Positions 29,957 to 51,301 of a stretch of DNA of 63,040 bases are shown one piece after another (the first letter of the stretch is position 1; every line of letters begins with the position of its first letter). The stretch comes from a virus, in the IMG/VR virus record IMGVR_UViG_3300042691_028416, positions 1 to 63,040 of that record; one strand, given 5' to 3'. Made by a program: the position numbers and the translations under genes. The notes beneath the pieces are model-generated. The model was not told where the DNA came from. It ran no database searches and worked only from the letters and a program-made list of their open reading frames with translations.

Positions 29957-30965
29957 ACAAATACTTGACAGTATAAAACAGGCTAAAGAAGAACCATTAC
30001 ATTTGAATAGTAAAGTACTTCTTATAGACTCGATGAACACATTTCTGAGGAGCTTTGCCATGATCAATCATATGAATCCAAGTGGAGCCCACATTGGTGG
30101 GCTCACTGGGTTCTTAAAATCAATTGGTTTTGCTATTAGACATATAAAACCCACTAGAGTAATTTTAGTATTTGATGGAACCGGCAGTACAACAAACAAA
30201 AAGAATTTATATCCTGAGTATAAAGCTCATAGGAAAATACAACGTATAACTAATTGGGACGGATTTGATGACAAAGATGATGAAGCTGAATCTATTGAAA
30301 ACCAGTTAGTACGTTTAGTACAATATTTAAGGTGTTTACCTATTAGTATGTTATCTATTGATAAAGTTGAAGCAGATGATGTTATTGGTTATATAGCTAA
30401 TAATTTAAAGGATGAAGTATATATAATGTCTGCTGATCAAGACTTTATGCAACTAGTAACACCTAAAGTGACAGTGTATTCACCTATCAAGAAAAAGTTC
30501 TACACACCTACTTTAGTTAAGGAAGAATATGGTCTATATCCTCAAAATTTTATTAACCAGAAAATATTAATGGGAGATAATTCTGATAATATACCTGGCG
30601 TAAAAGGATTAGGTCCTAAAAAATTATTTAAATTATTTCCAGAGTTAGAAGGTAGTGAGTATGTTACACTAGATTCTATTTTTGAGAAATGCAGTACTTC
30701 AGACTCACATGGTTTATATAATGATATTCTTAATTTTAAGAAACAATTATTAATAAATCAACAACTAATGGATTTATCTGATCCTAACATACCAGAAGAA
30801 GATATTACTGAAATAGAAACAGTAATAAATAATGAACCTAACAAAATAGATAAATTACATTTTTTAAAGTTATACAACGAAGATCGATTAGGAAATTCTA
30901 TCCCTAATGTAGAGATATGGTTGACCGAAATATTTTCGTATCTTCAAGCTTATAAAATAAAATAA
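29940..30965 (+). CDS. rnh: 5'-3' exonuclease / flap nuclease (T4 RNase H-like)
   Basis: 341 residues (T4 Rnh: 305). Acidic metal-binding motifs of the FEN family are all present: LLIDSMNTFLRSF, ILVFDG, VEADDVIGYIA and MSADQDFMQLV. The helix-hairpin-helix is GDNSDNIPGVKGLGPKKLFKLFPEL. It removes RNA primers from lagging-strand fragments. It overlaps uvsX and lies four bases before the helicase gene, in one replication operon. Confidence 0.88.
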   Translation: MNKTYKQILDSIKQAKEEPLHLNSKVLLIDSMNTFLRSFAMINHMNPSGAHIGGLTGFLKSIGFAIRHIKPTRVILVFDGTGSTTNKKNLYPEYKAHRKIQRITNWDGFDDKDDEAESIENQLVRLVQYLRCLPISMLSIDKVEADDVIGYIANNLKDEVYIMSADQDFMQLVTPKVTVYSPIKKKFYTPTLVKEEYGLYPQNFINQKILMGDNSDNIPGVKGLGPKKLFKLFPELEGSEYVTLDSIFEKCSTSDSHGLYNDILNFKKQLLINQQLMDLSDPNIPEEDITEIETVINNEPNKIDKLHFLKLYNEDRLGNSIPNVEIWLTEIFSYLQAYKIK

Positions 30966-30969
30966 AATT

Positions 30970-32346
30970 ATGGTTGCGTTTAACAAGCTCTCAGTTTACG
31001 GTTTGAATTTCCAAACCAAGGTTATTAGTTCGCTTTTAAAGAATAAAAAATTTCTACTTAACATTAGAGATGTTGTTACACCTGAATTCTTTGACAATCA
31101 AGCGCATCAATATCTAGTAGAAACTATTATAAAGTATTTTGACAAATGGCATTCAACTCCTACACTTGATACATTACATATAGAAGTAAAGAAAATAGAA
31201 AACGATGTTCTAAAAACATCAGTAGTAGAACAACTTAAAGAAGCATATAAAGTAGATAATGAAGATGCTGAGTATGTAGAAGCTGAATTTAGTAATTTTT
31301 GTAAAAATCAACAACTAAAGAAAGCACTATTAACATCAGTAGATTTACTACAATCAGGAATGTATGATGATATTCGTCACTTAATTGATTCAGCCTTAAA
31401 AGCAGGTATGGATAAGAATATAGGTCATGAGTATGAAAAAGATGTTGAAGATAGATATCGTGAAGAATATAGAAGTCCAATTGCTACACCTTGGTCTGTA
31501 GTGAATGATTTATTACAAGGAGGATTAGGTAGTGGTGATTTTGGATTAATATTTGGTGGTCCTGGAGGTGGTAAGAGTTGGTCATTAATTGCTTTAGGAG
31601 CAGCAGCTGTTAAAGCAGGTTATAATGTTTGTCACTATACACTTGAGCTAAGTGAAGCATATGTTGGTAAAAGATATGATGCTTGTTTCACACAAATATC
31701 AGTAGCACAAGTTCAAGACTATAGAAAAGACGTTGAAGATGCTGTCTCTAAATTACCTGGCAAACTTATTATTAAAGAATATCCAACAGGTAAAGCGACT
31801 ATTAGTACTATTGAATCACATATTCAAAAATGTAAGGATTTAGGTAATCCACCTGACTTAATTATTATTGATTATGTGGATTTATTACGCGCTAATAGGT
31901 CAAGTAAAGAACGTAAAGAAGAAATTGATGATGTTTATGTAGCTACTAAAGGCTTAGCTCGTGAATTAAATTTACCAGTTTGGTCTGTTAGTCAAGTAAA
32001 TAGAGCTGGTGCTAATGATAACATTATTGAAGGAGATAAAGCAGCTGGTTCATATAATAAAATGATGATTACAGATTTTGCAATGTCAATTTCACGCCGT
32101 CGACAAGATAAAGCTGGTGGTACTGGTAGATTTCATATTATGAAAAATAGATATGGTATGGATGGTGTAACATACGCCGCTGTCATAGACACATCTACAG
32201 GTCATATACAGATTGATAATAATGAGTTAGATGAAGAAACACTTGAACGAGAAAGACCAGTTAAGTTAAATGAGAATTTTGACTCTGTAGATAGGGATAT
32301 ACTTAAAAAGAAGTTTTTTGAACTTAACAATAATATTGGATCTTAA
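30970..32346 (+). CDS. gp41: DnaB-family replicative helicase
   Basis: 458 residues (T4 gp41: 475). The N-terminal domain has TPEFFDNQAHQYLVETI. The RecA-like domain has Walker A GGPGGGKSW at 196-204, LELSEAYVGKRYDA, Walker B LIIIDYVDLLRANR, VWSVSQVNRAG with the sensor Gln, and SISRRRQDKAGGTGRFHIMKNRYGMDG with the Arg-finger region. It unwinds DNA ahead of the polymerase. No gp59-like loader or gp61-like primase is recognisable in this window. Confidence 0.88.
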   Translation: MVAFNKLSVYGLNFQTKVISSLLKNKKFLLNIRDVVTPEFFDNQAHQYLVETIIKYFDKWHSTPTLDTLHIEVKKIENDVLKTSVVEQLKEAYKVDNEDAEYVEAEFSNFCKNQQLKKALLTSVDLLQSGMYDDIRHLIDSALKAGMDKNIGHEYEKDVEDRYREEYRSPIATPWSVVNDLLQGGLGSGDFGLIFGGPGGGKSWSLIALGAAAVKAGYNVCHYTLELSEAYVGKRYDACFTQISVAQVQDYRKDVEDAVSKLPGKLIIKEYPTGKATISTIESHIQKCKDLGNPPDLIIIDYVDLLRANRSSKERKEEIDDVYVATKGLARELNLPVWSVSQVNRAGANDNIIEGDKAAGSYNKMMITDFAMSISRRRQDKAGGTGRFHIMKNRYGMDGVTYAAVIDTSTGHIQIDNNELDEETLERERPVKLNENFDSVDRDILKKKFFELNNNIGS

Positions 32347-32347
32347 T

Positions 32348-32357
32348 TATATTTATA
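32348..32357 (+). promoter_or_regulatory. TATATTTATA box three bases before a start codon
   Basis: It ends three bases before the ATG at 32361, so the transcript would be leaderless. No TTTG lies at the expected spacing (TTAA instead). Confidence 0.4.
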
Positions 32358-32360
32358 CCC

Positions 32361-32849
32361 ATGAGTACAGTTGTTTTAGTTTCATGTTCTGCTGGTAAGG
32401 AAGATAAACCAATGCCTGCTGAAAAATTATATAATTCAGATTTGTTTAAAAAACAATTAGAATACGCTAAAAAGCTATCTAATCCTAATGATATCTATAT
32501 TATATCTGCTAAATACCATTTAGTACCATTAAATAAAACTATAGATCCATATAATGTCACTTTAAAAGATATGCCATCTGATGAACGTGAAAAATGGTCT
32601 GAAGTTGTTAAAAAACAATTAGAAGATAAAGGTTATAATCTTCAAAAAGATAAGTTTGTTTTTCTAGCAGGAAATGCTTATCGTCAATATTTAGAGCCCC
32701 ACATGAAAAATGTTGAGGTGCCTTTTGAAGGTTTACGTATTGGACAACAAAAGAAAGCGTTGTTGCAAAAACTAAAGGAAACAGTTATTAAGTTAACATT
32801 AAACATAATTAAAGAAGTTAAAAAACTTTATAAAAATGGAGTTCTCTAA
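32361..32849 (+). CDS. DUF6884-like protein
   Basis: 162 residues. The start VVLVSCSAGKEDKPMPAEKLYNSDLFKKQ, the segment IYIISAKYHLVPL, PYNVTLKDMP and the end FLAGNAYRQYLEPH..EVPFEGLRIGQQKKAL match what I remember of the DUF6884 family, a nucleotide-processing-like fold with an early Cys and conserved Lys/Tyr. Biochemical function is unknown to me. Related proteins occur next to modified-base genes in some genomes, and the deazaguanine operon begins 4 kb downstream, but a link here is only suggestive. It overlaps the next gene by 14 bases. Confidence 0.6.
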   Translation: MSTVVLVSCSAGKEDKPMPAEKLYNSDLFKKQLEYAKKLSNPNDIYIISAKYHLVPLNKTIDPYNVTLKDMPSDEREKWSEVVKKQLEDKGYNLQKDKFVFLAGNAYRQYLEPHMKNVEVPFEGLRIGQQKKALLQKLKETVIKLTLNIIKEVKKLYKNGVL

Positions 32850-33099
32850 AAAACAAATAGATGACGCTATGTCACGGTATCTTCAAGATAATGAAGATTA
32901 TGGTGACTATAATGAAAGTGAACTAATTAGTGAAACTTTTAAAGGTGTTAAATCATTACTTACAGAGAGTACTAGTGATAGAGTTTCGCTTCAAACACTT
33001 CAAGAACATGCTAATACTTTAGGTGGTATTCCAAAAGATATTCTTGAAGATTTTGTTTTGTACCTTAATATAGATGAGTTAGATAACCTTCTAACTTAA
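32836..33099 (+). CDS. Small hypothetical protein
   Basis: 87 acidic residues, mostly helical (FSKKQIDDAMSRYLQDNEDYGDY... and HANTLGGIPKDILEDFVLYLNIDELDNLL). It overlaps the DUF6884-like gene and ends before an 82-base gap. No family is recognised. Leu-Thr-Glu occurs internally but not in an N-terminal leader, so it is not called a packaged protein. Confidence 0.55.
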   Translation: MEFSKKQIDDAMSRYLQDNEDYGDYNESELISETFKGVKSLLTESTSDRVSLQTLQEHANTLGGIPKDILEDFVLYLNIDELDNLLT

Positions 33100-33181
33100 T
33101 TTAACCAAACATAATTAAAAAAGAAAATCGCAAAAAGCGACACGCTATTATTTACTATAAATTTTTAAATATATAAACAAA

Positions 33182-35032
33182 ATGGACGTAACACAAGAAA
33201 TTTTATCAGACATTACAACATACATGAAGTATGCTAAGTACAATCCTGATCAAAAACGCAGAGAAACATGGGAAGAATTAGTAACAAGAAATAAAGAAAT
33301 GCATCAGGAAAAATTTCCTCACTTACATAATGAAATAGAAAACGCTTATAAACTAGTATATGCTAAAAAAGTTTTACCGTCAATGCGTAGCTTACAGTTC
33401 GCGGGTAAGCCCATTGAACTTAATAATACTCGTATATTTAATTGTTCTTATCTTCCTATTGATGATTGGAGAGCTTTTAGCGAAATAATGTTCTTGTTAT
33501 TATCAGGAACAGGAGTAGGTTATAGTGTACAAACACACCACATTGATAAGTTACCTGAAATTAAAATACCAATAAAAACAAAACGTTATTTGATTGGTGA
33601 CAGTATTGAAGGATGGGCTGATGCTATTAGAATGTTAACTAAAGCATATTTTCAAGGTGGTGCCTTACCAGTGTTTGATTTTAGAGATATTCGTCCAAAA
33701 GGAGCTCAATTAATTACTGTAGGGGGTAAAGCACCTGGTCCAGAACCACTTAAAGAATGTTTATTCCAGTTACAAAAAGTATTGGATAGAAAACAAAATG
33801 GTGAAAAACTTACATCACTAGAAGCACACGATATGGCTTGTCATATTGCTGATGCAGTATTAAGTGGTGGTATTCGTAGAGCAGCATTGATCTCATTATT
33901 TAATTTAGATGATGAAGCAATGTTAACTTGCAAATTCGGTAACTGGTGGGAAGAAAACCCACAGCGTGGTCGCTCAAACAATTCAGCAGTAGTTATTCGT
34001 CATAAAATTGATGAAGAAGAATTCTTTAAATTATGGAAGAAAATTGAATTAAGTGGATCAGGTGAACCAGGTATCTACTTCAGCAACGATAAAGATTGGG
34101 GAACAAACCCATGTTGCGAAATTGCTTTACGTCCATTCCAATTCTGTAACTTATGTGAAGTAAATGTTAGTGATGTTGTTGATCAAGCTGATCTAAACGC
34201 TAGAGTTGAGGCAGCTGCGTTTATAGGTACATTACAAGCCGCTTATACTGATTTTCATTACTTAAGAGATATATGGCGTAAAACAACTGAAAAAGATGCT
34301 TTATTAGGTGTTGGAATGACAGGTATTGGATCAGGTGCTGTATTAGGATTAGATCTTAAACAAGCAGCTGATTTAGCTAAACAAACAAATGAATTAGTAG
34401 CAGGTAGAATTGGTATTAATAAAGCAGCTCGTGTTACAACAGTTAAACCAAGTGGTACTAGCTCATTAGTATTAGGTACTAGCTCAGGTATTCATGCTTG
34501 GCATAATGATTATTATATTCGTAGAATTAGAGTTGGTAAAAACGAAGCTATTTATACTTATTTAGCTATTAATCATCCTGAATTGATTGAAGATGATTTC
34601 TTCAAACCAACAATTCAAGCAGTAATTTCTGTTCCACAGAAAGCACCAGCTGGATCAATATTAAGAAACGAAGATGTTATTGACATGCTTGAACGTGTTA
34701 AGAAATTCAATGTGCAGTGGGTGAAGAAAGGTCATCGTAAAGGAGCAAATACAAACAATGTATCAGCTACAGTATCAATTAAAGAAGGTGAGTGGGAAAA
34801 AGTAGGTAAATGGATGTGGGAAAATCAAGATACATTTAATGGCTTATCAGTATTACCTTATTTTGGAGGTACATACACACAAGCTCCATTTGAAGATATT
34901 ACTGAAGAAAAGTTCTATGAAATGGCTAATCATTTACTTGGAGTTGATTTAAGTAAAGTAGTTGAATTTAGTGATGAAACATCATTGATGGATCAGAGCG
35001 CTTGCGCTGGAAATCAGTGCGAAATAGTGTAA
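33182..35032 (+). CDS. nrdJ: B12-dependent (class II) ribonucleotide reductase
   Basis: 616 residues, one polypeptide with no small-subunit gene nearby. Class II monomeric features are VLPSMRSLQFAG near the start, RIFNCSYLPID (first redox Cys), NPCCEIAL and FCNLCEVN (radical-site Cys), VKPSGTSSLVLGTSSGIH, and a C-terminal Cys pair in CAGNQCEIV. It makes deoxynucleotides using adenosylcobalamin. The Lactobacillus enzyme is about 740 residues, so this is compact. No ATP-cone is visible. B12 would come from the host. The 82-base leader has no recognised promoter. Confidence 0.88.
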   Translation: MDVTQEILSDITTYMKYAKYNPDQKRRETWEELVTRNKEMHQEKFPHLHNEIENAYKLVYAKKVLPSMRSLQFAGKPIELNNTRIFNCSYLPIDDWRAFSEIMFLLLSGTGVGYSVQTHHIDKLPEIKIPIKTKRYLIGDSIEGWADAIRMLTKAYFQGGALPVFDFRDIRPKGAQLITVGGKAPGPEPLKECLFQLQKVLDRKQNGEKLTSLEAHDMACHIADAVLSGGIRRAALISLFNLDDEAMLTCKFGNWWEENPQRGRSNNSAVVIRHKIDEEEFFKLWKKIELSGSGEPGIYFSNDKDWGTNPCCEIALRPFQFCNLCEVNVSDVVDQADLNARVEAAAFIGTLQAAYTDFHYLRDIWRKTTEKDALLGVGMTGIGSGAVLGLDLKQAADLAKQTNELVAGRIGINKAARVTTVKPSGTSSLVLGTSSGIHAWHNDYYIRRIRVGKNEAIYTYLAINHPELIEDDFFKPTIQAVISVPQKAPAGSILRNEDVIDMLERVKKFNVQWVKKGHRKGANTNNVSATVSIKEGEWEKVGKWMWENQDTFNGLSVLPYFGGTYTQAPFEDITEEKFYEMANHLLGVDLSKVVEFSDETSLMDQSACAGNQCEIV

Positions 35033-35061
35033 TGGAGGAGCATGTGAAATTATACTCCTGC

Positions 35062-35070
35062 TATATTTAT
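35062..35070 (+). promoter_or_regulatory. TATATTTAT box before the endonuclease gene
   Basis: It lies 13 bases before the ATG at 35084. A late-type box inside the nucleotide-metabolism region could drive the endonuclease and the packaged-protein candidate behind it. Confidence 0.4.
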
Positions 35071-35083
35071 TGGAAACACAGGT

Positions 35084-35671
35084 ATGGCAGGAGTAATTTA
35101 TAAAATCACTAATCCTAAAGATAAGATATATATTGGTTGTACTATTGATTTTAAACGAAGATTATCTGAATATAGACGATTAAGTATGAATGGTCAAGTT
35201 AAGTTATACAATAGCTTGGTTAAATATGGATTTGATAATCATATATTTGAAATAGTAGAGGAATGTAACGAAGATATACTTCATGAACGTGAGATATATT
35301 GGATTAAACATTTTAATTGTATAGAAGAAGGATTAAATATTAGATTAGGTAATAGAACAGGAGCATTAATGGATAGTACAAAACAAAAAATATCCAAAGC
35401 TCTTAAAGGAAGAAAAGTAACATGGGAATCTAAAGGACCTAAAGGGTACAAATACACAGAGGAACAAAAACAAAAACTAAGCCAAGGACTAAAAGAATAT
35501 TATAAACATAATTCAGTTAAACCTAAACCAAAATCTGTATCTCCCTCTATAGTTGAGGAGATAAGAACCAAATTTAATTTAGGCCATAAACGCTCAGACT
35601 TAAGTAGAGAATATAATGTAAGTTGGGGTACTATTAAAAACATAACTGACTGTATAAATTCATATAAATGA
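35084..35671 (+). CDS. GIY-YIG homing-type endonuclease
   Basis: 195 residues. The GIY-YIG core starts with VIYKITNPKDKIYIGCTIDFKRRLSEY, with catalytic Arg in FKRRL and Glu in HEREIYWI. Modular DNA-binding repeats follow (TKQKISKALKGRK and YTEEQKQKLSQGLKEYYKHN, NUMOD3-like). The end SREYNVSWGTIKNIT is a helix-turn-helix. It lies just after nrdJ as a free-standing gene, a common place for homing endonucleases that target ribonucleotide reductase genes. Its stop overlaps the next ATG. Confidence 0.87.
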   Translation: MAGVIYKITNPKDKIYIGCTIDFKRRLSEYRRLSMNGQVKLYNSLVKYGFDNHIFEIVEECNEDILHEREIYWIKHFNCIEEGLNIRLGNRTGALMDSTKQKISKALKGRKVTWESKGPKGYKYTEEQKQKLSQGLKEYYKHNSVKPKPKSVSPSIVEEIRTKFNLGHKRSDLSREYNVSWGTIKNITDCINSYK

Positions 35672-36297
35672 TAAAACTAGTTGATCTATTAAACGAAAAT
35701 AAAGATTATAGTAATATATTCACTAAAGATGAATATGATTTGTTTGTAAATTATTTAAAAGGAAAACTTAATAAAGTTGATAAATCAAAACTTATAGAAC
35801 TTATTAAAAAATTAAAGTCTATTCAAAGTCAATATCCTGAATTACAAACAAAACCATTTGATAAAGCTTATAGAGTAGATATATTACCAATAAATAAATT
35901 ACCTGTCCCATTAGAATCATTAGATATAGAATATGGAGGTGAAAAATATGGTAATATTTTAGGAGGTAAATCTAGTTTTCAAATGGCTAAATTAAATTCA
36001 ATACCATTTGAGTCTAAAAGTATATTAAATGGATGGACATTAGATAGAGATTTTGCTTTTGAAATGCTATATGATACAGCTAGAGATAATGATTTTGAAC
36101 AGACACTACCTGTTTTATATGAAATAGATTATAATAAAGATGAATTTATTTTTGATGTTGATTTTTTAGAAAAAATAAGGGGACAAGAAACAGGATATGG
36201 GTATGAAGCTGAAGTAATACGTTTAGGACCAAATAAACCTTTACCAGGATATGTTGTGTATATAGATAATATAATACCAGATATCAACTATGACTAA
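35668..36297 (+). CDS. Alt-like ADP-ribosyltransferase candidate with packaging leader
   Basis: 209 residues. The first ten, MIKLVDLLNE, have the length and Leu-x-Glu end of a T4 capsid-targeting sequence (T4 internal protein leaders are ten residues ending Ile-Ala-Glu). The body has the order expected of an Arg-Ser-Glu ADP-ribosyltransferase: Arg69 in AYRVDIL, SILNGWTLDRDFAFEM at about 118-133, and Glu180-x-Glu182 in GYEAEVIRL. T4 Alt is a packaged ADP-ribosyltransferase that modifies host RNA polymerase, so an Alt-like role is inferred. The fold call rests on short motifs and needs a profile search. Confidence 0.5.
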   Translation: MIKLVDLLNENKDYSNIFTKDEYDLFVNYLKGKLNKVDKSKLIELIKKLKSIQSQYPELQTKPFDKAYRVDILPINKLPVPLESLDIEYGGEKYGNILGGKSSFQMAKLNSIPFESKSILNGWTLDRDFAFEMLYDTARDNDFEQTLPVLYEIDYNKDEFIFDVDFLEKIRGQETGYGYEAEVIRLGPNKPLPGYVVYIDNIIPDINYD

Positions 36298-36454
36298 ACT
36301 AATAGAAAACATTCACTATATAATAAATGAGGACGGTAGGGTAGTATTCACTGCCCTATTCCTCATTCAACAAGGGAAATGTTGTGGAAATGGTTGTAAG
36401 AATTGTCCGTATGATCCTAAACACACTAAAGGAAATACTGACCTAAAAAAATAA
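36290..36454 (+). CDS. DUF5522 small Cys-rich protein
   Basis: 54 residues. YIINEDGRVVFTALFLIQQGKCC then GNGCKNCPYDP reproduces the DUF5522 signature of a short beta lead and a CC-x3-C-x2-CP cluster. The four Cys could bind a metal. I know this family mainly from Bacteroidota, which supports the host guess. The ATG lies inside the end of the preceding gene (8-base overlap). Function unknown. Confidence 0.8.
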   Translation: MTKLIENIHYIINEDGRVVFTALFLIQQGKCCGNGCKNCPYDPKHTKGNTDLKK

Positions 36455-36456
36455 GT

Positions 36457-36465
36457 TATATTTAA
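36457..36465 (+). promoter_or_regulatory. TATATTTAA box before the deazaguanine operon
   Basis: It ends three bases before the ATG at 36469. No TTTG lies at 19-20 bases. A weak candidate for the operon promoter. Confidence 0.35.
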
Positions 36466-36468
36466 AAC

Positions 36469-36960
36469 ATGATAATTCATTCAAAAGAATTCATAAACAA
36501 ACATATATCTAAACTACAACCACTCAAATATAACCAGTTTTACTGGTGGAGAAAATTCAAAGACAAGTCTCCATTATCGTCCAAAGAAGCAGTACATGCT
36601 CGGATTGATAATGGAGATTTTGATTTCTCCTCATATTATTGGCAGGCACAATACGCCTTAATTGAGATGGAAGAAAAAACAGGTCATATTAAGGACCCAG
36701 CTAAACGTCATGAAGAACAAATGATATATAGAGAACGTCATAGACGATTAATGAAAGATTTTGAAAAAGATGAAGCTGAACGTTTGGTAAATTACAAAAA
36801 AGCTATCACAGATATATTTGAAATAGAAGTAGATGAGTTAGAAAGAAAAATGGAAGATTTTGATGGAACCCTAAAAGAATTATATACCTTAATAAAAGCA
36901 AAATATAATTTTAGAACAGTTAAAAAACGTAAAGATAGACCTAAAAAATATAATATATGA
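36469..36960 (+). CDS. Hypothetical protein heading the deazaguanine operon
   Basis: 163 residues, very rich in charged and aromatic residues and mainly helical (QFYWWRKFKDKSPL, DFSSYYWQAQYALIEMEEKTGHIKDPAKRHEEQMIYRERHRRLMKDFEK). The C-terminus is basic (VKKRKDRPKKYN). No family is recognised. It overlaps queD by ATGA, so it is part of that operon. A DNA-contacting or regulatory role is conceivable from the basic tail only. Confidence 0.6.
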   Translation: MIIHSKEFINKHISKLQPLKYNQFYWWRKFKDKSPLSSKEAVHARIDNGDFDFSSYYWQAQYALIEMEEKTGHIKDPAKRHEEQMIYRERHRRLMKDFEKDEAERLVNYKKAITDIFEIEVDELERKMEDFDGTLKELYTLIKAKYNFRTVKKRKDRPKKYNI

Positions 36961-37421
36961 GTAAATTTTTATCAACAAAATTATTTGATGGTTTTAGTTG
37001 TGTATTCCGTCAATGGAAAGCTGAAGGAACACATTGTAGATTTTTACATGGTTATGGAGTATCATTCAGAGTATGGTTTGCTGGTGAATTAGATGAACGT
37101 AATTGGGTTTGGGACTTTGGTGGTATGAAACGTGCTAAAGGAACTATTGATGGTATGAATCCTAAAGAATGGATGGACTATATGTTTGACCATACATTAA
37201 TAGTAGCTGAAGATGATCCATACTTAGCTGGATTTAAAGCAATGGGAGAACATGGTCTAACTCAAACTAGAGTAATACCAGCTACAGGAGCAGAACAATT
37301 TGCAAAATATATCTTTGAAAAACTAAATACATTTGTTCAAGAAGAAACAAATGGCCGAGTAAAAGTAGCACGTGTTGAATTTATGGAACATAATAAGAAC
37401 ACAGCTATATATGAAGGATAA
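36957..37421 (+). CDS. queD: QueD-like 6-carboxytetrahydropterin synthase
   Basis: 154 residues. Catalytic-type Cys27 and His31 occur in HCRFLHGYG. Further landmarks are WVWDFGGMK, the conserved FDHTLIVAEDDP, GAEQFAKYIFEKL and RVEFMEHNKNTAIY. The usual reaction is 7,8-dihydroneopterin triphosphate to 6-carboxytetrahydropterin, step two of preQ0 synthesis. The canonical zinc ligands are not all kept: the first His position reads Phe17 (FSCVFRQ) and HGH reads HGYG. It shares the operon with queE, queC and folE. Confidence 0.8.
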   Translation: MSKFLSTKLFDGFSCVFRQWKAEGTHCRFLHGYGVSFRVWFAGELDERNWVWDFGGMKRAKGTIDGMNPKEWMDYMFDHTLIVAEDDPYLAGFKAMGEHGLTQTRVIPATGAEQFAKYIFEKLNTFVQEETNGRVKVARVEFMEHNKNTAIYEG

Positions 37422-37809
37422 AAAACCAGATCTAGTTGTTTGGGATGAAGAACGTGGTTACTATCCTAGAGAACTAACATATGGTAGTAATTTAGGTGCT
37501 CCTGCTATACATGTAGATAATGTAGATGGATGGAAGCTAGCAAGAATAAAAGATGTAAATAGTGAATTTGAAGCTAGATATAATGAATTAATAGCTGAAG
37601 CACAAAAACTAAAAAACGAATATGAGTGGAACGAACTTATATACACTAAAGTTCAATATAACTTTCAACCAACAGTAGGTCATGTTTATCACTTATATTC
37701 TAGAGATGATGAAAGTATGTTTCTATCAATTATAGAACCAAGTAACTGGAATAAAAAACACATAGCAAGTTTTAAATTAGATTCAACAAATAAATGGATT
37801 AAAATATGA
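37411..37809 (+). CDS. DUF2452 family protein
   Basis: 132 residues from the ATG at 37411; a longer in-frame start at 37372 would overlap queD by 50 bases. KPDLVVWDEERGYYPRELTYGSN at the start, SEFEARYNELIAEAQKLKNEYEWNELIY in the middle and VGHVYHLYSRDDESMFLSII near the end are typical of DUF2452, a family frequent in Bacteroidota. Function unknown. It overlaps queD upstream and the transglycosylase gene downstream, so it is tightly coupled with the modification genes. Confidence 0.75.
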   Translation: MKDKKPDLVVWDEERGYYPRELTYGSNLGAPAIHVDNVDGWKLARIKDVNSEFEARYNELIAEAQKLKNEYEWNELIYTKVQYNFQPTVGHVYHLYSRDDESMFLSIIEPSNWNKKHIASFKLDSTNKWIKI

Positions 37810-38591
37810 AAATTTCACATGAGTTACCTTTAGGGTTAATGCATTATGGTTATCAATGGAATGATTATGATTATTGTCTTCCACATCTAATAGATAAATA
37901 TGAACAATATTGTTTGTATTTTCAGAAAGCAAGATTAGATAAACGTTTCATTATAATGGATAATGGACTATTTGAAGGTGTAACTCACACAACAGAAGAT
38001 CTATTATCTAAAATTAATTTAATTCGCCCATCAATATTCATTGTACCTGATGCTTGGAATGACTCAACTAAAACATTAGTGAATGCTAAGAGTTGGATGA
38101 TGAATTATAAACCAAGCCTACCAGAAGGTGTTGAACTAATGGCAGTGTGTCAAGGTGAAGATATTCATCAATTGATAACTACATATCAAACATTACTTGA
38201 TTTAGGATATAAACATATAGCATTTAATCACTCAAGTGTTGCCTATATGGAAATGTACCCAGGTATGGATCAATTAAAACGTCAAATGTATGGTAGAATG
38301 GAATTTATTAGAAAACTAGTTTTAACAAATACAATAAATAAAAACGCTTATCATCATTTATTAGGTTGTTCATTACCACAAGAATTTATGTGCTATAAAG
38401 ATTGGAAATTTATCAAATCATGTGATACATCAAATCCAATCATTGTTGGAGCTCAAGGTGAAAGATATACAGACAGTGGTTTAACATTTAAGCCAAAAGA
38501 AAAAATTGAACATTATATGGAAGAAGATTTGTCTGATCGACTTGATGATATTATTTTTAATGTAAACAAATTTAAACAATATGTCAGTTAA
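37806..38591 (+). CDS. dpdA: DpdA-like DNA deazaguanine transglycosylase
   Basis: 261 residues. The landmarks follow the tRNA-guanine transglycosylase barrel in order: Asp52 in IIMDNGLFEG (usual DSGGFQ), Asp82 in IFIVPDAW, Gln116-Gly in AVCQGED, YKHIAFNHSS (usual Gly-rich GLA), HLLGCSLPQEF at about 184-194 (usual HYLMGxGxPEDL) and Asp207 in IKSCDTSNP (usual nucleophile FDCVxPTR). The zinc-binding end of true TGTs is missing, as in DpdA proteins that put 7-deazaguanine into DNA. Flanked by queD and queC. The exact substrate (preQ0 or its amide) is not shown by sequence. Confidence 0.75.
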   Translation: MKISHELPLGLMHYGYQWNDYDYCLPHLIDKYEQYCLYFQKARLDKRFIIMDNGLFEGVTHTTEDLLSKINLIRPSIFIVPDAWNDSTKTLVNAKSWMMNYKPSLPEGVELMAVCQGEDIHQLITTYQTLLDLGYKHIAFNHSSVAYMEMYPGMDQLKRQMYGRMEFIRKLVLTNTINKNAYHHLLGCSLPQEFMCYKDWKFIKSCDTSNPIIVGAQGERYTDSGLTFKPKEKIEHYMEEDLSDRLDDIIFNVNKFKQYVS

Positions 38592-38853
38592 TATGTTATC
38601 ATTGTATGACTATTTAGGTAGAGCTGCTGGTCCTAATTTAGGTTTAGAAGTAGCTAAGTATGCCGCTCATCAAGGAGTTAAAACTGGAATTAGAGAAGTA
38701 TCTAATCCAAAGTATAGTGGGCCTATTAAATTATACACTGAAGATTTTTTAATGTCATTTTTTAATAACCCAAACTATAAAACAGTTATTAAAGAAGATG
38801 AGCAGTGGTACAAAGAAAAAATAAAAAAGAAAGAAAATAATTTACCATTTTAA
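38581..38853 (+). CDS. Small conserved protein between dpdA and queC
   Basis: 90 residues. SLYDYLGRAAGPNLGLEVAKYAAHQGVK then REVSNPKYSGPIKLYTEDFLMSFF looks like a compact helical domain, and the tail is Lys-rich. It overlaps the end of the transglycosylase gene by 11 bases. I recognise no named family. Position makes an accessory role in base exchange possible. Confidence 0.6.
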   Translation: MSVNMLSLYDYLGRAAGPNLGLEVAKYAAHQGVKTGIREVSNPKYSGPIKLYTEDFLMSFFNNPNYKTVIKEDEQWYKEKIKKKENNLPF

Positions 38854-38865
38854 TAAAACAAATAT

Positions 38866-39699
38866 ATGAAAAAACAAGCAGTATTATCACTAAGTGGAGG
38901 AATGGATAGCTCTACATTGCTGCTTCATCTACTCGCCAATGGCTATGAAGTTACAGCTCTATCCTTTGATTATGGACAGAAACATCGTGTTGAACTTGAA
39001 CGTGCTGAATCATTAGTAGAATATATTAATGATCACATGTTTAGAGTAAAACAGGATAATTACGTAAAATATCAAGTAATTAAACTTGATGGATTGTCAA
39101 ATTTGCTTAACTCAGCATTAGTTGAGGGTGGAAAAGATGTTCCTGAAGGACACTACGCTCATGAAAATATGAAAGATACAGTAGTACCAAATCGTAATAA
39201 AATATTTAGTTCATTAATTCAAGCTGTTGCTTTATCAATTGCTACTCAAAAAGATACAACATGTGATATAGCAATGGGTATTCATGCTGGTGATCATGCT
39301 ATTTATCCTGATTGTAGGCAAGAATTTAGGGATGCTGATTATGGAGCATTTACATTAGGTAATTGGGAAGCACATAGAGTATCTACTTATACACCTTATT
39401 TACATACTGATAAATTTGGTATTTTACAAGATGGAGAAAAATGTTGTGAAGAATTAGGTCTTGATTTTAATGAAGTATATAAGCGTACTAACACAAGTTA
39501 TAAACCAATTAAATTAGCTCCTAATGTTTGGTTATCTGATTTTAAATCAGCGTCATCTGTAGAACGTATAGAAGCATTTATTAAATTAGGTCGTCCTGAT
39601 CCTGTTCAATATGGTGAAGTATTTGATGGTGGTATTAGAACTGTTAAATGGGAAACTGTTAAATCACATGTAGAACAAGTATTAGCTGAATTTCATTAA
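38866..39699 (+). CDS. queC: QueC-like preQ0 synthase lacking the zinc cysteines
   Basis: 277 residues. The PP-loop LSGGMDSSTLL (9-19) is intact, as are SFDYGQKH, VVPNRNKIF and YPDCRQEF. QueC converts 7-carboxy-7-deazaguanine to preQ0 through an adenylated acid and an amide intermediate. The C-terminal zinc site is lost: where TCY..CGxCxxCxxR is expected, this protein reads TSY (211-212), Asp225, Ser228 and Ser231 before Arg234. About 45 extra residues are present against E. coli QueC (231). It may be active without zinc, or stop at the amide. Confidence 0.82.
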   Translation: MKKQAVLSLSGGMDSSTLLLHLLANGYEVTALSFDYGQKHRVELERAESLVEYINDHMFRVKQDNYVKYQVIKLDGLSNLLNSALVEGGKDVPEGHYAHENMKDTVVPNRNKIFSSLIQAVALSIATQKDTTCDIAMGIHAGDHAIYPDCRQEFRDADYGAFTLGNWEAHRVSTYTPYLHTDKFGILQDGEKCCEELGLDFNEVYKRTNTSYKPIKLAPNVWLSDFKSASSVERIEAFIKLGRPDPVQYGEVFDGGIRTVKWETVKSHVEQVLAEFH

Positions 39700-39701
39700 T
39701 T

Positions 39702-39824
39702 ATGGAACATATTATAGAACATATGATAGGCTTATGTGGTGAAAAACATTTATCATTTTTTATTTTACTAAATGAATGGCCTATTTTTCAATATACAATT
39801 AATTATCTAAAAACATGGAGGTAA
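39702..39824 (+). CDS. Very small protein after queC
   Basis: 40 residues (MEHIIEHMIGLCGEKHLSFF... to ...NYLKTWR). It fills the gap between queC and the next gene almost exactly and continues the packed gene order. GLCGEKHLSFFILLNE is hydrophobic, possibly a short amphipathic helix. No family is recognised; support is from context only. Confidence 0.5.
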   Translation: MEHIIEHMIGLCGEKHLSFFILLNEWPIFQYTINYLKTWR

Positions 39825-39828
39825 AACT

Positions 39829-40059
39829 ATGAAGTGTCTTAAAAATCAAAAAACAGGTGACATTATTAGAGTCACAGATGTACAAGCAAATCAAATGGAA
39901 GGTCATACTTGGAAGTATGTAACCAAATCAGAGTGGAAATCATTAACACGTGCTCCTAAAACAGAACAACAAGTAGTTGAGTCTGAAAAAAAGGAAAAAA
40001 CATTGTCTAAGAAAGCACAACGTAGAGCTAAATTTAATACTGAAAAAAATGACAGTTAA
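39829..40059 (+). CDS. Small basic protein
   Basis: 76 residues. The first 45 look like a small beta domain (CLKNQKTGDIIRVTDVQANQMEGHTWKYVTKSEWKSL) and the rest is a charged, Lys-rich helix. It overlaps the next start by 11 bases. The GGAGG upstream is part of the previous frame and probably fortuitous, since other genes here lack such motifs. Function unknown. Confidence 0.55.
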   Translation: MKCLKNQKTGDIIRVTDVQANQMEGHTWKYVTKSEWKSLTRAPKTEQQVVESEKKEKTLSKKAQRRAKFNTEKNDS

Positions 40060-40276
40060 AGAACTAATAGAACATTTACAGCGACTAGATCCTAACATAC
40101 ATGTATTCCATAGAGGATATGAGGGTGGACTTGATGACGTTGTTGCTATAAATGGACCTTTAGATGTGGCTTTAAATGTAAATGAAGAAGATGAATGGTG
40201 GTATGGATCACATTCACTTATTAAAGATGTAGAAGACAAATCAAATTATACAATTGTAAAAGGAATAATATTATGA
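40049..40276 (+). CDS. Small hypothetical protein before queE
   Basis: 75 residues from the ATG at 40049; a longer in-frame start at 39977 would overlap the previous gene by 83 bases. TVKELIEHLQRLDPNIHVFHRGYEGGLDDV resembles small acidic phage proteins often seen in T4-like genomes (helix then strand, Leu-Asp-Pro turn). It overlaps queE by four bases. No function known. Confidence 0.6.
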   Translation: MTVKELIEHLQRLDPNIHVFHRGYEGGLDDVVAINGPLDVALNVNEEDEWWYGSHSLIKDVEDKSNYTIVKGIIL

Positions 40277-41112
40277 GTAAAATAGATCCAAATAAACTAC
40301 TAATAAGTAGTGATTTTTATTCCGTCCAAGGTGAAGGAATAAGTAGTGGAGTTCCATCATATTTCATTCGCTTAGGTATATGTAACCTAACTTGCGGTAT
40401 GAGTAGAGCATTCGCTAACATGCTAATGAAAGAAAAATCATTAGAAGACGGTGAAATATTTGAAGGTGACTTACACAAGGAAGGTAAAGCAACTTGGACT
40501 TGTGACAGTACATCTCAATGGCTATGGAGAGGTGAAGATAAAGAATTTCAGTATCTGATTGACAGATGGAAAGAGCAAGGCATCTATGATGATATCAGAA
40601 ATGGTATTATTCATATCATCTGGACTGGTGGTGAACCTACAATCAAAGGACATCAAGAAGCAATTGTTAATTTTCATAAATATTTAGGCGACACAATGGA
40701 AGATGATTCTTTCGCTGATATGTTTAATGAAATAGAAACAAATGGTACAGTTTATATTGAAAATGATTTATTTAGATTAATCCATCAAATCAACTGCTCA
40801 CCAAAGCTATCCAACTCAGGTATGACTGAGAAACAACGTATAGTACCAGCCGCAATTAAGCGCATAATGGAACATTCCAATTACCAATTTAAATTTGTTA
40901 TTAGTAATGAAGAAGATGTTAAAGAATTATTCCGTGACTTTGTCGTACCATATAGCATACCTCTTACCAAAGTGGTTTGTATGCCAGGATTGGATGATGC
41001 CTCTAATTTCGAAGAGCGTACTCAATTCTGTCTCGAGATGGCGAAAAAATATAAATTTAGAGGATTAACTCGTTTGCATATCGCAGCGTGGAACAAAACA
41101 TTAAACGTATAA
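40273..41112 (+). CDS. queE: QueE-like 7-carboxy-7-deazaguanine synthase
   Basis: 279 residues, a radical-SAM enzyme. Hallmarks are DFYSVQGEG (14-22), FIRLGICNLTC with Cys37 and Cys41, and IWTGGEPTIKG for SAM binding. The third cluster Cys seems to be Cys77 in TWTCDST, giving CX3CX35C instead of the usual CX3CX2C, with a charged insert of about 33 residues. Product: 7-carboxy-7-deazaguanine from 6-carboxytetrahydropterin, the substrate of QueC. It is somewhat longer than bacterial QueE (about 220-245), which the insert explains. Confidence 0.83.
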   Translation: MSKIDPNKLLISSDFYSVQGEGISSGVPSYFIRLGICNLTCGMSRAFANMLMKEKSLEDGEIFEGDLHKEGKATWTCDSTSQWLWRGEDKEFQYLIDRWKEQGIYDDIRNGIIHIIWTGGEPTIKGHQEAIVNFHKYLGDTMEDDSFADMFNEIETNGTVYIENDLFRLIHQINCSPKLSNSGMTEKQRIVPAAIKRIMEHSNYQFKFVISNEEDVKELFRDFVVPYSIPLTKVVCMPGLDDASNFEERTQFCLEMAKKYKFRGLTRLHIAAWNKTLNV

Positions 41113-41113
41113 T

Positions 41114-41350
41114 ATGAGTATAACAATTACAATGGAAAATCTTCTTGTAGGTTCTATTTTACTATTGTTAGGATTACAAGTATTCCAGCAATACAAATTA
41201 GATAAAGCCAACAAAGAAATTAAGCAATTATGGGATCAACTTTCAACATGGAATACTATGGTTGCTTTAAAACTTTTGGAAAACCAAAAAGAAATAGCTA
41301 AATTAAACGAAAATAAAAATAATGGAGAACAAACGAAGAAAGATAGCTAA
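41114..41350 (+). CDS. Small membrane-anchored coiled-coil protein
   Basis: 78 residues. Residues 8-24 form one hydrophobic helix (ENLLVGSILLLLGLQVF), followed by a helical charged part (QYKLDKANKEIKQLWDQL). The start is two bases after queE and the end overlaps folE by 29 bases. Function unknown. Confidence 0.55.
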   Translation: MSITITMENLLVGSILLLLGLQVFQQYKLDKANKEIKQLWDQLSTWNTMVALKLLENQKEIAKLNENKNNGEQTKKDS

Positions 41351-42047
41351 TGTAGAAACATTAGAAACAGCACAAGCTGGCTTTGCAAATGGTATTTCAA
41401 TCCAGTTAGCAAATGTACTTAGCAGAGGTGATCATCGCTCACTTAACGCTCAAGAAAAACAAATCATTATTGAAAATGCTGAGAAAGCATATGGTGATTT
41501 TCTTACAGCATTAGGTGTTAATTGGCAAAATGATCCAAATAGTATGGAAACACCTCGTCGTGTAGCTAAAGCATATGTAAATGATTTATGGGCGGGTAGG
41601 TATAATTTACCAACTGATATTACAGCATTTCCTAGTGATGGTTACAATGGTATTGTATTAGAAAGAGACATTCCAATTGTGTCAATGTGTTCACACCATC
41701 ATCAAGCAATTTTAGGTAAAGCCCATATAGCTTATATACCAGGTGAAGACGGTAAAGTAGTTGGATTGAGTAAATTGAATCGTATTGTAGAACACTTTGC
41801 TCGTAGAGGTGCTATTCAAGAACAACTTACAGTAGCAGTACATAATGCTATTCAAGCAGTAGCTGAAACTGAAAATGTAATGGTAGTAGTACACTCATAC
41901 CACAATTGTGTATCATGTAGAGGTGTTAAACACTTTGGTGCATCAATGGTAACAAGTGAAGTATCAGGTGTATTCGCTGATCACACTAGAACAGCTAAAA
42001 TGGAAGTAATTGAAATGTTAAAATTAAATATGGAGGGATATAAATAA
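41322..42047 (+). CDS. folE: GTP cyclohydrolase I
   Basis: 241 residues. Family landmarks are TPRRVAKAYVNDLWAG, SMCSHHHQAILGKAHIAYIP (Cys123 and His126 as zinc ligands), VGLSKLNRIVEHFARR, QLTVAVHNAI and HNCVSCRGVKHFGASM (Cys196 as third ligand). It converts GTP to 7,8-dihydroneopterin triphosphate, the entry step for both folate and 7-deazaguanine; here the operon points to the latter. Unlike QueC and QueD of the same operon, it keeps its zinc site. Confidence 0.92.
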   Translation: MENKRRKIANVETLETAQAGFANGISIQLANVLSRGDHRSLNAQEKQIIIENAEKAYGDFLTALGVNWQNDPNSMETPRRVAKAYVNDLWAGRYNLPTDITAFPSDGYNGIVLERDIPIVSMCSHHHQAILGKAHIAYIPGEDGKVVGLSKLNRIVEHFARRGAIQEQLTVAVHNAIQAVAETENVMVVVHSYHNCVSCRGVKHFGASMVTSEVSGVFADHTRTAKMEVIEMLKLNMEGYK

Positions 42048-42208
42048 TGCAACCAAAAGAATCTAAATCAAACAAACACTTCTGGTTTAGTATGGCTAAA
42101 TCAGTTTTAAGACTATTTGGATGTCTATACTTATTTTTTGATGATGTAGTTGGCGCGGCTGTTTTATTAGCTGTAGCTGAAGGATTAGGAATTATAGAAG
42201 AATTTTAA
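42047..42208 (+). CDS. Small membrane-associated protein
   Basis: 53 residues. The start overlaps the folE stop (TAATG), strong evidence of coupling. A basic start (KESKSNKHFWFSMAKSVLRLF) leads to a hydrophobic segment (VVGAAVLLAVAEGLGII). One helix may insert in the membrane. No family is recognised. Confidence 0.6.
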   Translation: MQPKESKSNKHFWFSMAKSVLRLFGCLYLFFDDVVGAAVLLAVAEGLGIIEEF

Positions 42209-42220
42209 TAAATTTATAAT

Positions 42221-42736
42221 ATGTTAAACGTAAAACAAATTTTAGACGAAGGTCTACTTAAATTAGAACATAGTAAAGGTAAACCAGCACAAGTTGGATT
42301 TGATCTTACACTTAAACAAGTAAACAAAATTGGTAACAAAGGAGTAAATATACCTAAAATAGGTAAAGTATTAAAAGACAAAACTGAACTGACTAATTAT
42401 ACTCCACATGGATTAATGAATTTAGATGGTGTTACTGGTTGGTTACTTTATGAAGGTGTATATGATATTACATTCAATGAAGGATGCAAAATACCATCAA
42501 ATAGAGTAGCATTCATCAAACAACGCTCATCACTATATCGCAATGGAGCCATCATTAATAGCCCAGTATTCGATCCAGGATTTGAAACTGAATTTATGGG
42601 TACATTAATGTTTGTTCATGAAACATTATTCATTGAAGAAAATGCTAGAGTAGCACAAATATATTTTCATGAATGTGAACCTGCGGAGCTCTACAACGGC
42701 CAGTGGCAGGGTGATAAACAACGTAATCAACAGTAA
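42221..42736 (+). CDS. dcd: dCTP deaminase / dUTPase-like enzyme
   Basis: 171 residues. The trimeric dUTPase/dCTP deaminase signature is seen in GFDLTL (26-31), RSSLYRNG (102-109) and SPVFDPGFETEF (114-125). The C-terminal YNGQWQGDKQR matches the flexible YxGxYQG closing arm of dCTP deaminases. It supplies dUMP or dUTP for thymidylate and keeps uracil out of DNA. It closes the deazaguanine operon before a terminator, which groups nucleotide supply with base modification. Deaminase versus dUTPase activity cannot be decided here. Confidence 0.82.
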   Translation: MLNVKQILDEGLLKLEHSKGKPAQVGFDLTLKQVNKIGNKGVNIPKIGKVLKDKTELTNYTPHGLMNLDGVTGWLLYEGVYDITFNEGCKIPSNRVAFIKQRSSLYRNGAIINSPVFDPGFETEFMGTLMFVHETLFIEENARVAQIYFHECEPAELYNGQWQGDKQRNQQ

Positions 42737-42763
42737 AAATTACATCCCTTCCCACCAAGAATA

Positions 42764-42789
42764 ATGGTTCCTCATTTGAGGAGCCATTT
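42764..42789 (+). terminator. Rho-independent terminator
   Basis: A 10-base-pair stem (atggttcctc / gaggagccat, one G-T pair) with an ATTT loop is followed by TT. It separates the deazaguanine operon from the second fibre block. Confidence 0.85.
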
Positions 42790-42796
42790 GTCTTGT

Positions 42797-42806
42797 CATA
42801 TTTATA
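42797..42806 (+). promoter_or_regulatory. Late-type box CATATTTATA
   Basis: It ends three bases before the ATG at 42810. TTTG occurs 18 bases upstream, but inside the terminator stem, so its meaning is doubtful. Confidence 0.45.
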
Positions 42807-42809
42807 TAC

Positions 42810-43100
42810 ATGGCATCTGGAAAATACCCAATATTTAATAGGAGTAAAAATCCTTTTAGTAATAATACAAGACCATCACCTTCAACCGCTAAAAAAGGTA
42901 GTGTGATGTTTGATGAAAATTATAGTGGTATTATAACAACAGCTAAATCATATGTGACTAATTATTATGAAACTGTGAATGGTTTAGAGTATTACGCTAT
43001 AGAAAATGAAAGTACATATTATCAAGATTTAGCAGGTACTATACCAAATATATTTCATGTTAATTATATACAAGATCCAATCAATAAACTAAATATATAA
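42810..43100 (+). CDS. Small virion-type protein
   Basis: 96 residues with a polar start (SGKYPIFNRSKNPFSNNTRPSPST) and a beta-rich remainder (GIITTAKSYVTNYYETVNGLEYYAIENEST). It lies three bases before a fibre gene and after a late-type box. Probably a structural or fibre-associated protein; no family is recognised. Confidence 0.55.
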   Translation: MASGKYPIFNRSKNPFSNNTRPSPSTAKKGSVMFDENYSGIITTAKSYVTNYYETVNGLEYYAIENESTYYQDLAGTIPNIFHVNYIQDPINKLNI

Positions 43101-43102
43101 GC

Positions 43103-44350
43103 ATGGCTTTAGTTTTAAGAAATACAAAAGGTAGTCCTTTAACATTTGCTGAAGGAGATGCTAACTTAGTTTATTTAGAAAGTTTAGCATCCAGTGGAAG
43201 TAATATTAATATTAATAGTTTAGTCACTACTAGTTCATTTAATAATTTTACAGGAAGTATACTTACAACATCCTCATTTAATACATATACTGGTTCTTCT
43301 TCATCTCAATTTGCTGGTACAGCCTCATATGCTCTATTTGCTGCTAATGGAGGAGGTGGAGGTAATATAGATACAGGATCATTAGCTACTACAGGTTCAA
43401 ATACATTTAATGGTAATCAAATTATATCAGGTTCATTTACAGTAATAACAGGTAGCTCAATAGAGTTACAAGTTATAAATACTGGTGTAAGAATAGGTAG
43501 TGTTATTACTGATGCCCATACTGTAACAGGATCACTAAGAATAAGTGGATCAACAACTATTACAGGATCATTAAATGTAACAGGTCCTTCATCTACTATT
43601 AATAATCTATTAATAACATCATCAGCAGGAACTACAATATTATCAGCTACTACAAACTCACTTGATATTAACTTAACATCAGCTGGTACAAATAGTAATG
43701 GGTTTAGAATATATGCAAGTAATACTTTAACAGAAACACCAAATGCAGCGGCTATACAATTTTTCTCAATAGGTCACCCACTTTACCCAGGTCAATTCTA
43801 TTTAGATTCTGGAGCAGACAATAATGCCGCATTGATATTTAGAACAGCAGTGACAAGTGGTACTATCACAGAAAGAATGAGAATAACTGCTGATGGTAAT
43901 ACTTTAATTACTGGTTCATTAAGTGTAAGTGGTAGTATAGGACATGACTATAACCAATTTAAAACACTATATACTAGTGTAGGTACACAAACTAGTGGTG
44001 TTATTCTAACATTTGATCCAACACAATATTATTCTTGCTTTATAGAATACCATGTATTTTTATATGATGACCAACTACCAATAGTAACAACAACAAGAGC
44101 AGGAAATATAAAAATATCAGTACCATATAAACCTGATACCAATGATAATCAATATAATATACCATTTACAGAAAATACAACAGAACATAGAACACATCTT
44201 GACTATTCAACAGTAACAACAGAAGACATCTACTTCAAAGTAAATTATGATTCAAATGTAGGATTAATACAACTAATAATGTATAATGATAATGGAACAT
44301 ATGCCTCATATATAAATGCAGAATATAGATTAATAGGTTACAGATTATAA
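43103..44350 (+). CDS. Second tail fibre
   Basis: 415 residues. It uses the same modules as the giant fibre: TTSSFNTYTGSSSSQFAGTASYA at the start, GGGGG hinge, then TGSLRISGSTTITGSLNVTG repeats. The middle has a beta module ending ITERMRITADGNTLITGSLSVSG, and the tip region (about 300-415) is different (YSCFIEYHVFLYDDQLPIV and INAEYRLIGYRL). A shared N-terminus and differing tip suggest an alternative or accessory fibre using the same attachment point. Confidence 0.75.
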   Translation: MALVLRNTKGSPLTFAEGDANLVYLESLASSGSNININSLVTTSSFNNFTGSILTTSSFNTYTGSSSSQFAGTASYALFAANGGGGGNIDTGSLATTGSNTFNGNQIISGSFTVITGSSIELQVINTGVRIGSVITDAHTVTGSLRISGSTTITGSLNVTGPSSTINNLLITSSAGTTILSATTNSLDINLTSAGTNSNGFRIYASNTLTETPNAAAIQFFSIGHPLYPGQFYLDSGADNNAALIFRTAVTSGTITERMRITADGNTLITGSLSVSGSIGHDYNQFKTLYTSVGTQTSGVILTFDPTQYYSCFIEYHVFLYDDQLPIVTTTRAGNIKISVPYKPDTNDNQYNIPFTENTTEHRTHLDYSTVTTEDIYFKVNYDSNVGLIQLIMYNDNGTYASYINAEYRLIGYRL

Positions 44351-44359
44351 AAATAGATT

Positions 44360-45034
44360 ATGGCTCAATTAAAACATACTCCACCTAACTTTACAGTAAA
44401 TTCTATCAAAGGATGGAATACTAGATTATTATATACTTTTTATGGATATTTTAATACAGCATTTAATTATTATGCTGTAGCTACTAATTATACTAATAAT
44501 TTGTTCTCAACAATAGCAAATTGGGAAAATTCAAACGCCATCATAGTATCAAAAGGACAATATAACTACCCACAATATAGCTACTTTTTTAAAACAGGAA
44601 AAAGTATAAGGGTAAAAGGACATTTATTAGTAACATCAGATGATACAAATCAAATTTTTAATATCTTTGCTAAAATAAGAAATATTACAGATAATAGTTT
44701 AATTTCAATCGCGTCCTCGGATAAAAGTAATAGCCATACTTTCGCAAATGGAACTATAGTTAATGGTTTACCTATAAACTTTGAAATAACATATAGCTGT
44801 GTTGAAGATAATAATGATTTATATTTTCAAGCTAATGGATTTTTTCAATATGAATATGATAGCTATAGTGGTGGAGGTACAAATAGATCAGTTGTTTATG
44901 TCCCTATATGGTCTGACAATCAATTTACATTAGTTGGAACAAATGATGATGAATACAATCTACATATAAGTTTTGATGATAGTAATGTACCAAACATCAC
45001 ATTGCGACATATGACAGTAGAAGAATTAAGTTAA
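44360..45034 (+). CDS. Fibre-block structural protein
   Basis: 224 residues, aromatic- and Asn-rich, mostly beta (NTRLLYTFYGYFNTAFNYYAVATNYTNNLF, SIRVKGHLLVTSDD, DLYFQANGFFQYEYD). It starts nine bases after the second fibre and is probably a fibre tip or tail-surface protein. No repeat or catalytic motif and no family recognised. Confidence 0.6.
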   Translation: MAQLKHTPPNFTVNSIKGWNTRLLYTFYGYFNTAFNYYAVATNYTNNLFSTIANWENSNAIIVSKGQYNYPQYSYFFKTGKSIRVKGHLLVTSDDTNQIFNIFAKIRNITDNSLISIASSDKSNSHTFANGTIVNGLPINFEITYSCVEDNNDLYFQANGFFQYEYDSYSGGGTNRSVVYVPIWSDNQFTLVGTNDDEYNLHISFDDSNVPNITLRHMTVEELS

Positions 45035-50466: not shown

Positions 50467-50467
50467 T

Positions 50468-51277: not shown

Positions 51278-51301
51278 TTTAATAATAAAAATAAAAAAAT
51301 A

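Follow-up and report, generated by a model that had tools for sequence, protein, structure and literature searches.

The stretch of viral DNA analyzed here, referred to below as the window (63,040 nucleotides; IMG/VR virus record IMGVR_UViG_3300042691_028416), raises the question of whether a run of genes for the synthesis of 7-deazaguanine serves to modify the DNA of the phage that carries it and, if so, which base it delivers. An earlier note, made from the sequence alone, had read positions 36957-42047 as a DNA-modification operon composed of queD, a gene resembling those of tRNA-guanine transglycosylase (TGT) and the DNA transglycosylase DpdA, queC, queE, and folE. The five genes are all intact and lie in a single overlapping run on the + strand, as borne out by the open reading frames (ORFs) and by Pfam, PHROGs, and NCBIfam searches of the window's proteins, which back the assignments of QueD, QueC, QueE, and FolE. 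FolE is GTP cyclohydrolase IA, both by family score and by its zinc Cys/His/Cys residues. The full FolE-QueD-QueE-QueC-DpdA set, its joint conservation among relatives, and the fold and residues of the DpdA-like protein sustain the DNA-modification reading, and it is very probable that the operon converts GTP to a 7-deazaguanine and substitutes this for guanine in phage DNA, using a branch of QueC and QueD that lacks the zinc sites of these families. The evidence supports its belonging to a known kind of system, phage DNA 7-deazaguanylation, which is a known anti-restriction strategy.

Central to this reading is the transglycosylase. Single-sequence searches with its ORF gave no Pfam, NCBIfam, or PDB-sequence matches, and a profile search of the PDB placed the DNA preQ0 insertase 7ui4 at the top with a weak and local match only; a structure model was therefore used. 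The AlphaFold2 model (pLDDT 95.9, pTM 0.92) was compared with the PDB by Foldseek, the test that the earlier note had named as able to refute the claim, and the top 42 matches are all DpdA or TGT, with DpdA 7ui4 first, followed by 41 TGT structures ahead of other barrels (E 2.7e-7 to 3.3e-5). In an alignment of 69 sequences D52, D82, Q116, and D207 are invariant and HLLG is conserved, so that the landmarks listed in the earlier note (Asp52, Gln116, HLLG, and Asp207) are real; its list was incomplete in overlooking Asp82, a fourth invariant residue of catalytic type. Q116 and the second catalytic Asp align with the IIQG and MFDC motifs of E. coli Tgt (hhalign, at low probability, in support of these two residues only), and D52 and D82 were equated with TGT residues by motif and by eye. 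As modeled, the protein is confirmed to have a TGT/DpdA fold with TGT-type catalytic residues. It ends at 261 amino acids without a Cys/His cluster, as had been noticed earlier, and this absence of the C-terminal zinc site of tRNA TGT argues against a tRNA TGT and not against a DpdA. Searching with the protein by tblastn matched 24 named phage records, the best being the "DNA guanine transglycosylase" of Flavobacterium phage immuto (34% identity over the full length, 4e-35), and gp056 of Campylobacter phage CP220 also matched (33% identity over 98%, 2e-27). Cui et al. (NAR, 2023) have reportedly defined a DpdA3 subfamily and are said to have found complete replacement of guanine in virion DNA; the window's DpdA would presumably be assigned to this subfamily, and the extent of replacement in its own phage is a matter of inference.

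The genes of the operon are retained together well beyond the window. A viral-contig scan for DpdA yielded 55 loci, and among approximately 140 loci fetched with a DpdA or QueC query, a set in which fragments are included, some contigs occur in duplicate, and the counts are not independent, QueD is present in 130, DpdA in 125, QueC in 134, QueE in 120, and FolE in 82, usually close together. Label-free clustering of neighbors placed QueC, QueD, and QueE directly behind DpdA, then FolE, ribonucleotide reductase, a DnaB-like helicase, and small genes. Rough ratios of nonsynonymous to synonymous substitution (dN/dS) of 0.25 for DpdA, 0.23 for QueC, 0.16 for QueE, and 0.16 for QueD, with synonymous sites near saturation, are indications only that these genes are under purifying selection. 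The earlier suggestion that the small coupled genes could be accessory factors stood in part. The gene at 38581 neighbors dpdA in 59 loci (dN/dS approximately 0.43), and those at 39702 and 39829 recur in 51 and 29 loci, which makes these three better candidates than the DUF2452 gene, rejected as a core accessory factor on account of its presence in only 5 loci; the case for the gene at 40049, likewise in 5 loci, is also weak. A phosphoribosyltransferase (PF00156) absent from the window lies near dpdA or queC in 64 loci (two types, 29 and 35; e.g., L010:13038-13451 and L083:9731-10243) and could recycle the guanine released by DpdA into GMP.

The enzymes that would supply the base depart from their families at the metal sites. 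The zinc motif of E. coli QueC consists of C188, C197, C200, and C203, and C(x)8CxxCxxC is the hallmark of the family (PMC13329287). This hallmark is missing from the window's QueC, in which S211, D225, S228, and S231 take the place of the four cysteines, and the same Ser/Asp/Ser/Ser replacement is invariant in 58 of 58 non-redundant relatives. Also invariant in these 58 are the SGGxDS ATP loop, YGQKHxxE (YxQxHxxE), VPNRN (VPxRN), and YPDC; the essential Tyr that adjoins the position of the first zinc Cys is likewise retained. The best fold matches of a QueC model are the QueC structures 2pg3 and 3bl5. The zinc positions read S/D/S/S in phages and in Fastidiosibacteraceae/Thiotrichales, S/x/T/D in Pirellulaceae and Poseidoniales, and C/C/C/C in Marinobacter and other controls, and the sequences without zinc ligands form one clade (100/99 support); among named phages, CP220 and BSP7 keep the cysteines in their QueC and immuto does not. 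Decay of QueC was rejected, given the invariance of the replacement and the purifying selection.

QueD and QueE follow suit. The window's QueD carries CxxxHGY and is left with one of the three canonical zinc histidines, which are H16, H31, and H33 in E. coli QueD. Its relatives have Phe (or Ile) at the equivalent of His16 and Tyr at that of His33, keep the equivalents of H31, Cys27, and Glu110, and share a new His26 that is invariant (137/137); QueD may have a rearranged metal site. The published signature of QueD is CxxxHGH (PMC5041015), and a 2009 survey of zinc-regulated paralogues reported the QueD zinc residues to be conserved (PMC2770081). In QueE, the CX3CX2C of radical S-adenosylmethionine (radical-SAM) enzymes is replaced by CX3CX35C, with an insert inside the iron-sulfur motif; 61 relatives have this form and 49 a shorter one of approximately CX3CX7-8C, and all 112 keep the three cysteines. 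Thus QueC, QueD, and QueE depart uniformly across relatives from the metal-binding hallmarks of their families, and FolE keeps its zinc motifs. The missing ligands of QueC and QueD and the insert in QueE are new relative to the first reading of the window, and no description of a QueC or QueD without zinc ligands was found in the literature searched.

Whether such enzymes can work may be judged from cellular genomes, in which a scan of GTDB also found QueC of the window's type. This type is the only strong QueC of nine genomes, seven from Fastidiosibacteraceae/Thiotrichales and two from Planctomycetota, all of which encode QueF, TGT, and QueA; in the seven, an HGY-type QueD is moreover the only PTPS-family protein. 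Because the variants are the only copies in genomes with QueF, TGT, and QueA, the simplest reading is that QueC and QueD without zinc ligands probably make preQ0 (7-cyano-7-deazaguanine) without the canonical zinc sites, and some free-living bacteria appear to use them to make queuosine. Eight immuto-like phage loci with QueF also carry the zinc-ligand-less QueC, which points again to a QueC that makes preQ0. Two Poseidoniales genomes have this QueC and TGT and neither QueF nor QueA, the gene content expected for archaeosine. It is probable that one branch of the preQ0 pathway has a QueC that functions without its hallmark zinc site, joined in phages and Fastidiosibacteraceae by a QueD that does likewise. 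This branch would feed DNA 7-deazaguanine synthesis in many aquatic phages, and in Fastidiosibacteraceae, Pirellulaceae, and Poseidoniales it would feed the queuosine or archaeosine of tRNA. The dpdA-bearing hits in Pelagibacter, Flavobacteriales, and Woesearchaeota bins probably represent phage contigs and did not count as cellular evidence. As a separate observation, the Poseidoniales QueC (L174-L178, L182, L183, L185, L187, L189, L194, L196, L197) appears to be fused to a C-terminal domain resembling methionine sulfoxide reductase B, reading GCGWPSFHTEH...GGERYCINSAS, in a FolE-QueE-QueC-QueD cluster; the fusion was judged by eye.

As to the base itself, the earlier note had remarked that QueF was absent and had proposed preQ0 or an earlier intermediate. 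No QueF is encoded in the 63-kb window. Of the 13 larger related contigs searched (116-183 kb), 12 likewise lack it, those nearest the window among them, and the one that has it, G011 (L064), is a member of a separate immuto-like group in which QueF adjoins dpdA. With QueF absent from the window and its near relatives, the earlier note was right to predict, on gene content, the deoxynucleoside of preQ0 (dPreQ0) or an earlier intermediate. FolE, a T-fold homologue, accounts for the sub-threshold QueF matches in the window and in most relatives, and a weak match in contig G006 is a 270-amino-acid ORF that by eye resembles a portal protein and is not QueF. In the immuto-like branch (L002, L063, L064, L073, L121, L131, L135, L139), QueF lies beside dpdA, accompanied in all except L073 by a formyltransferase, an arrangement that fits a formylated preQ1 base. 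In phages CAjan and Rosebush, FolE, QueD, QueE, QueC, and DpdA lead to dPreQ0, which deletion of dpdA abolishes in CAjan (Hutinet 2019, PMC6884629). In the pathway envisaged for the window, FolE, QueD, and QueE would convert GTP to 7-carboxy-7-deazaguanine, and QueC would convert this by way of the amide to preQ0, with QueC and QueD functioning without canonical zinc sites. DpdA would then remove guanine from the finished phage DNA and insert the deazaguanine by a TGT-like exchange, and the modification would most likely shield the DNA against restriction by the host. Among candidate bases, dPreQ0 is the most likely and 2'-deoxy-7-amido-7-deazaguanosine (dADG) the main alternative.

Several points weigh against this account. 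The superposition of the DpdA model on TGT is moderate (TM 0.57-0.63, 10-14% identity), as would be expected of a shortened and distant relative; the source record is a 63-kb fragment, outside of which a later-acting enzyme may lie; no nucleoside measurement for the window's phage or its close relatives was found; and in CP220 a comparable gene set leads to dADG in place of dPreQ0. It is possible, if doubtful, that the same system yields dADG in the window's phage, either by release of the amide intermediate from QueC or by later hydration of preQ0. The DNA of Campylobacter phages CP220 and CPt10, which have a homologous DpdA, carries dADG (PMC8306585), and the unusual QueC of the window could stop at the amide. 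However, the QueC of CP220 is canonical, so the loss of zinc ligands does not explain its dADG, and the co-occurrence of the zinc-ligand-less QueC with QueF, which requires preQ0, in immuto-like loci and nine bacterial genomes indicates that a QueC of this type should reach preQ0. A QueF or other tailoring enzyme encoded beyond the fragment might place preQ1 or one of its derivatives in the DNA, which is unlikely; the immuto-like relatives, with QueF and formyltransferase adjoining dpdA, offer a precedent, but the larger contigs lack QueF with the one immuto-like exception given above.

A non-functional QueC would leave 7-carboxy-7-deazaguanine in the DNA, as the loss of all four zinc cysteines might suggest, but this outcome is very improbable: the replacement is invariant in all 58 relatives and not the mark of random decay, dN/dS is approximately 0.23, every other catalytic motif is intact, as is the essential Tyr, and the protein serves as sole QueC in bacteria with a queuosine pathway. 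The possibility that the operon serves queuosine in host tRNA draws on the fact that FolE, QueD, QueE, and QueC constitute the tRNA queuosine precursor pathway and that the transglycosylase has a TGT fold. It is scarcely credible, since the transglycosylase has no TGT zinc domain and is homologous to a named protein annotated as a DNA-guanine transglycosylase, the PDB profile search ranks the DNA preQ0 insertase first, albeit weakly, and the homologous phages CP220 and CPt10 have modified DNA. Modification of the phage's own DNA, most likely with preQ0, is therefore preferred.

The source record is linear and represents a large tailed phage, with genes for a tail sheath, a single-stranded DNA-binding protein, a DNA polymerase, and a RecA-like protein; megablast of positions 30001-45000 found no near relative among named phage genomes. 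The layout of the operon is given in Table 1.

Table 1. Genes of the predicted 7-deazaguanine DNA-modification operon in the window.
Gene	Position	Strand	Remarks
queD	36957..37421	+	PTPS/6-carboxytetrahydropterin synthase family, variant CxxxHGY; PF01242 1.8e-16; phrog_2389 2.6e-40
DUF2452 gene	37411..37809	+	overlaps queD; PF10504 9.7e-10; lineage-specific, non-core
dpdA, DNA guanine transglycosylase, 261 aa	37806..38591	+	assigned by homology, modeled fold, invariant residues; without C-terminal zinc domain
small gene, no known family	38581..38853	+	between dpdA and queC; conserved accessory candidate
queC, 7-cyano-7-deazaguanine synthase family	38866..39699	+	PF06508 1.5e-37; zinc ligands replaced by S211, D225, S228, S231
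conserved small gene, 40 aa	39702..39824	+	51 loci
conserved small gene, 76 aa	39829..40059	+	29 loci
sparse small gene, 75 aa	40049..40276	+	5 loci
queE, 7-carboxy-7-deazaguanine synthase	40273..41112	+	phrog_2076 1.6e-37; radical-SAM CX3C-X35-C (C37, C41, C77)
small gene preceding folE	41114..41350	+	19 loci
folE, GTP cyclohydrolase I	41322..42047	+	PF01227 5.7e-46; zinc motifs CSHH and HNCVSCRG

Outside the operon, a GIY-YIG endonuclease with a NUMOD3 motif, probably a homing endonuclease, is encoded directly downstream of ribonucleotide reductase (35084-35671), and a DUF5522 gene for a small Cys-rich protein (36290-36454; PF17653, 1.4e-15) lies upstream of dpdA in 65 loci. Positions 46559-55374, with two copies of the phage glycosyltransferase phrog_24687, a Nol-like carbamoyltransferase, an FkbM methyltransferase, and an HtrL/YibB protein, are a possible glycan-modification cluster, and an Hsp20-family small heat-shock protein is encoded at 61248-61682 (PF00011, 2.5e-15).

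The operon itself mainly widens the range of phage DNA 7-deazaguanylation, adding a group of environmental phages that is common. What is new is the uniform replacement of zinc ligands deemed defining for QueC and QueD throughout a large clade with cultured bacteria among its members, which makes the role of zinc in both enzymes directly testable. If they do work as proposed, zinc would not be essential to the chemistry of either; annotation by the motifs CxxxHGH, CX8CxxCxxC, and CX3CX2C will overlook or misname such proteins.

Among known systems, that of Flavobacterium phage vB_FspM_immuto (FolE, QueD, QueE, QueC, DpdA, QueF, and a formyltransferase) is alike in its full-length DpdA match, in a QueC that is 63% identical with the same Ser/Asp/Ser/Ser, and in a QueD that likewise has CxxxHGY; it differs in the QueF and formyltransferase beside dpdA, in genes that are spread out, and in a QueE with CX3CX7C rather than CX3CX35C. 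CP220 shares the DpdA homologue gp056 and has QueD, QueC, and radical-SAM genes, but its QueC retains all zinc cysteines and its genes are scattered, with no operon. CAjan and Rosebush have the same minimal FolE-QueD-QueE-QueC-DpdA set, whereas their DpdA probably belongs to another, distant subfamily, as tblastn with the window's DpdA gave no match to them. In comparison with canonical QueC (cluster 1 of PF06508; Biochem J 2026, PMC13329287), the window's enzyme has the same SGGxDS, YxQxHxxE, VPxRN, and YPDC motifs and the same essential Tyr, and differs in a zinc motif that is fully replaced and in its place in a separate clade.

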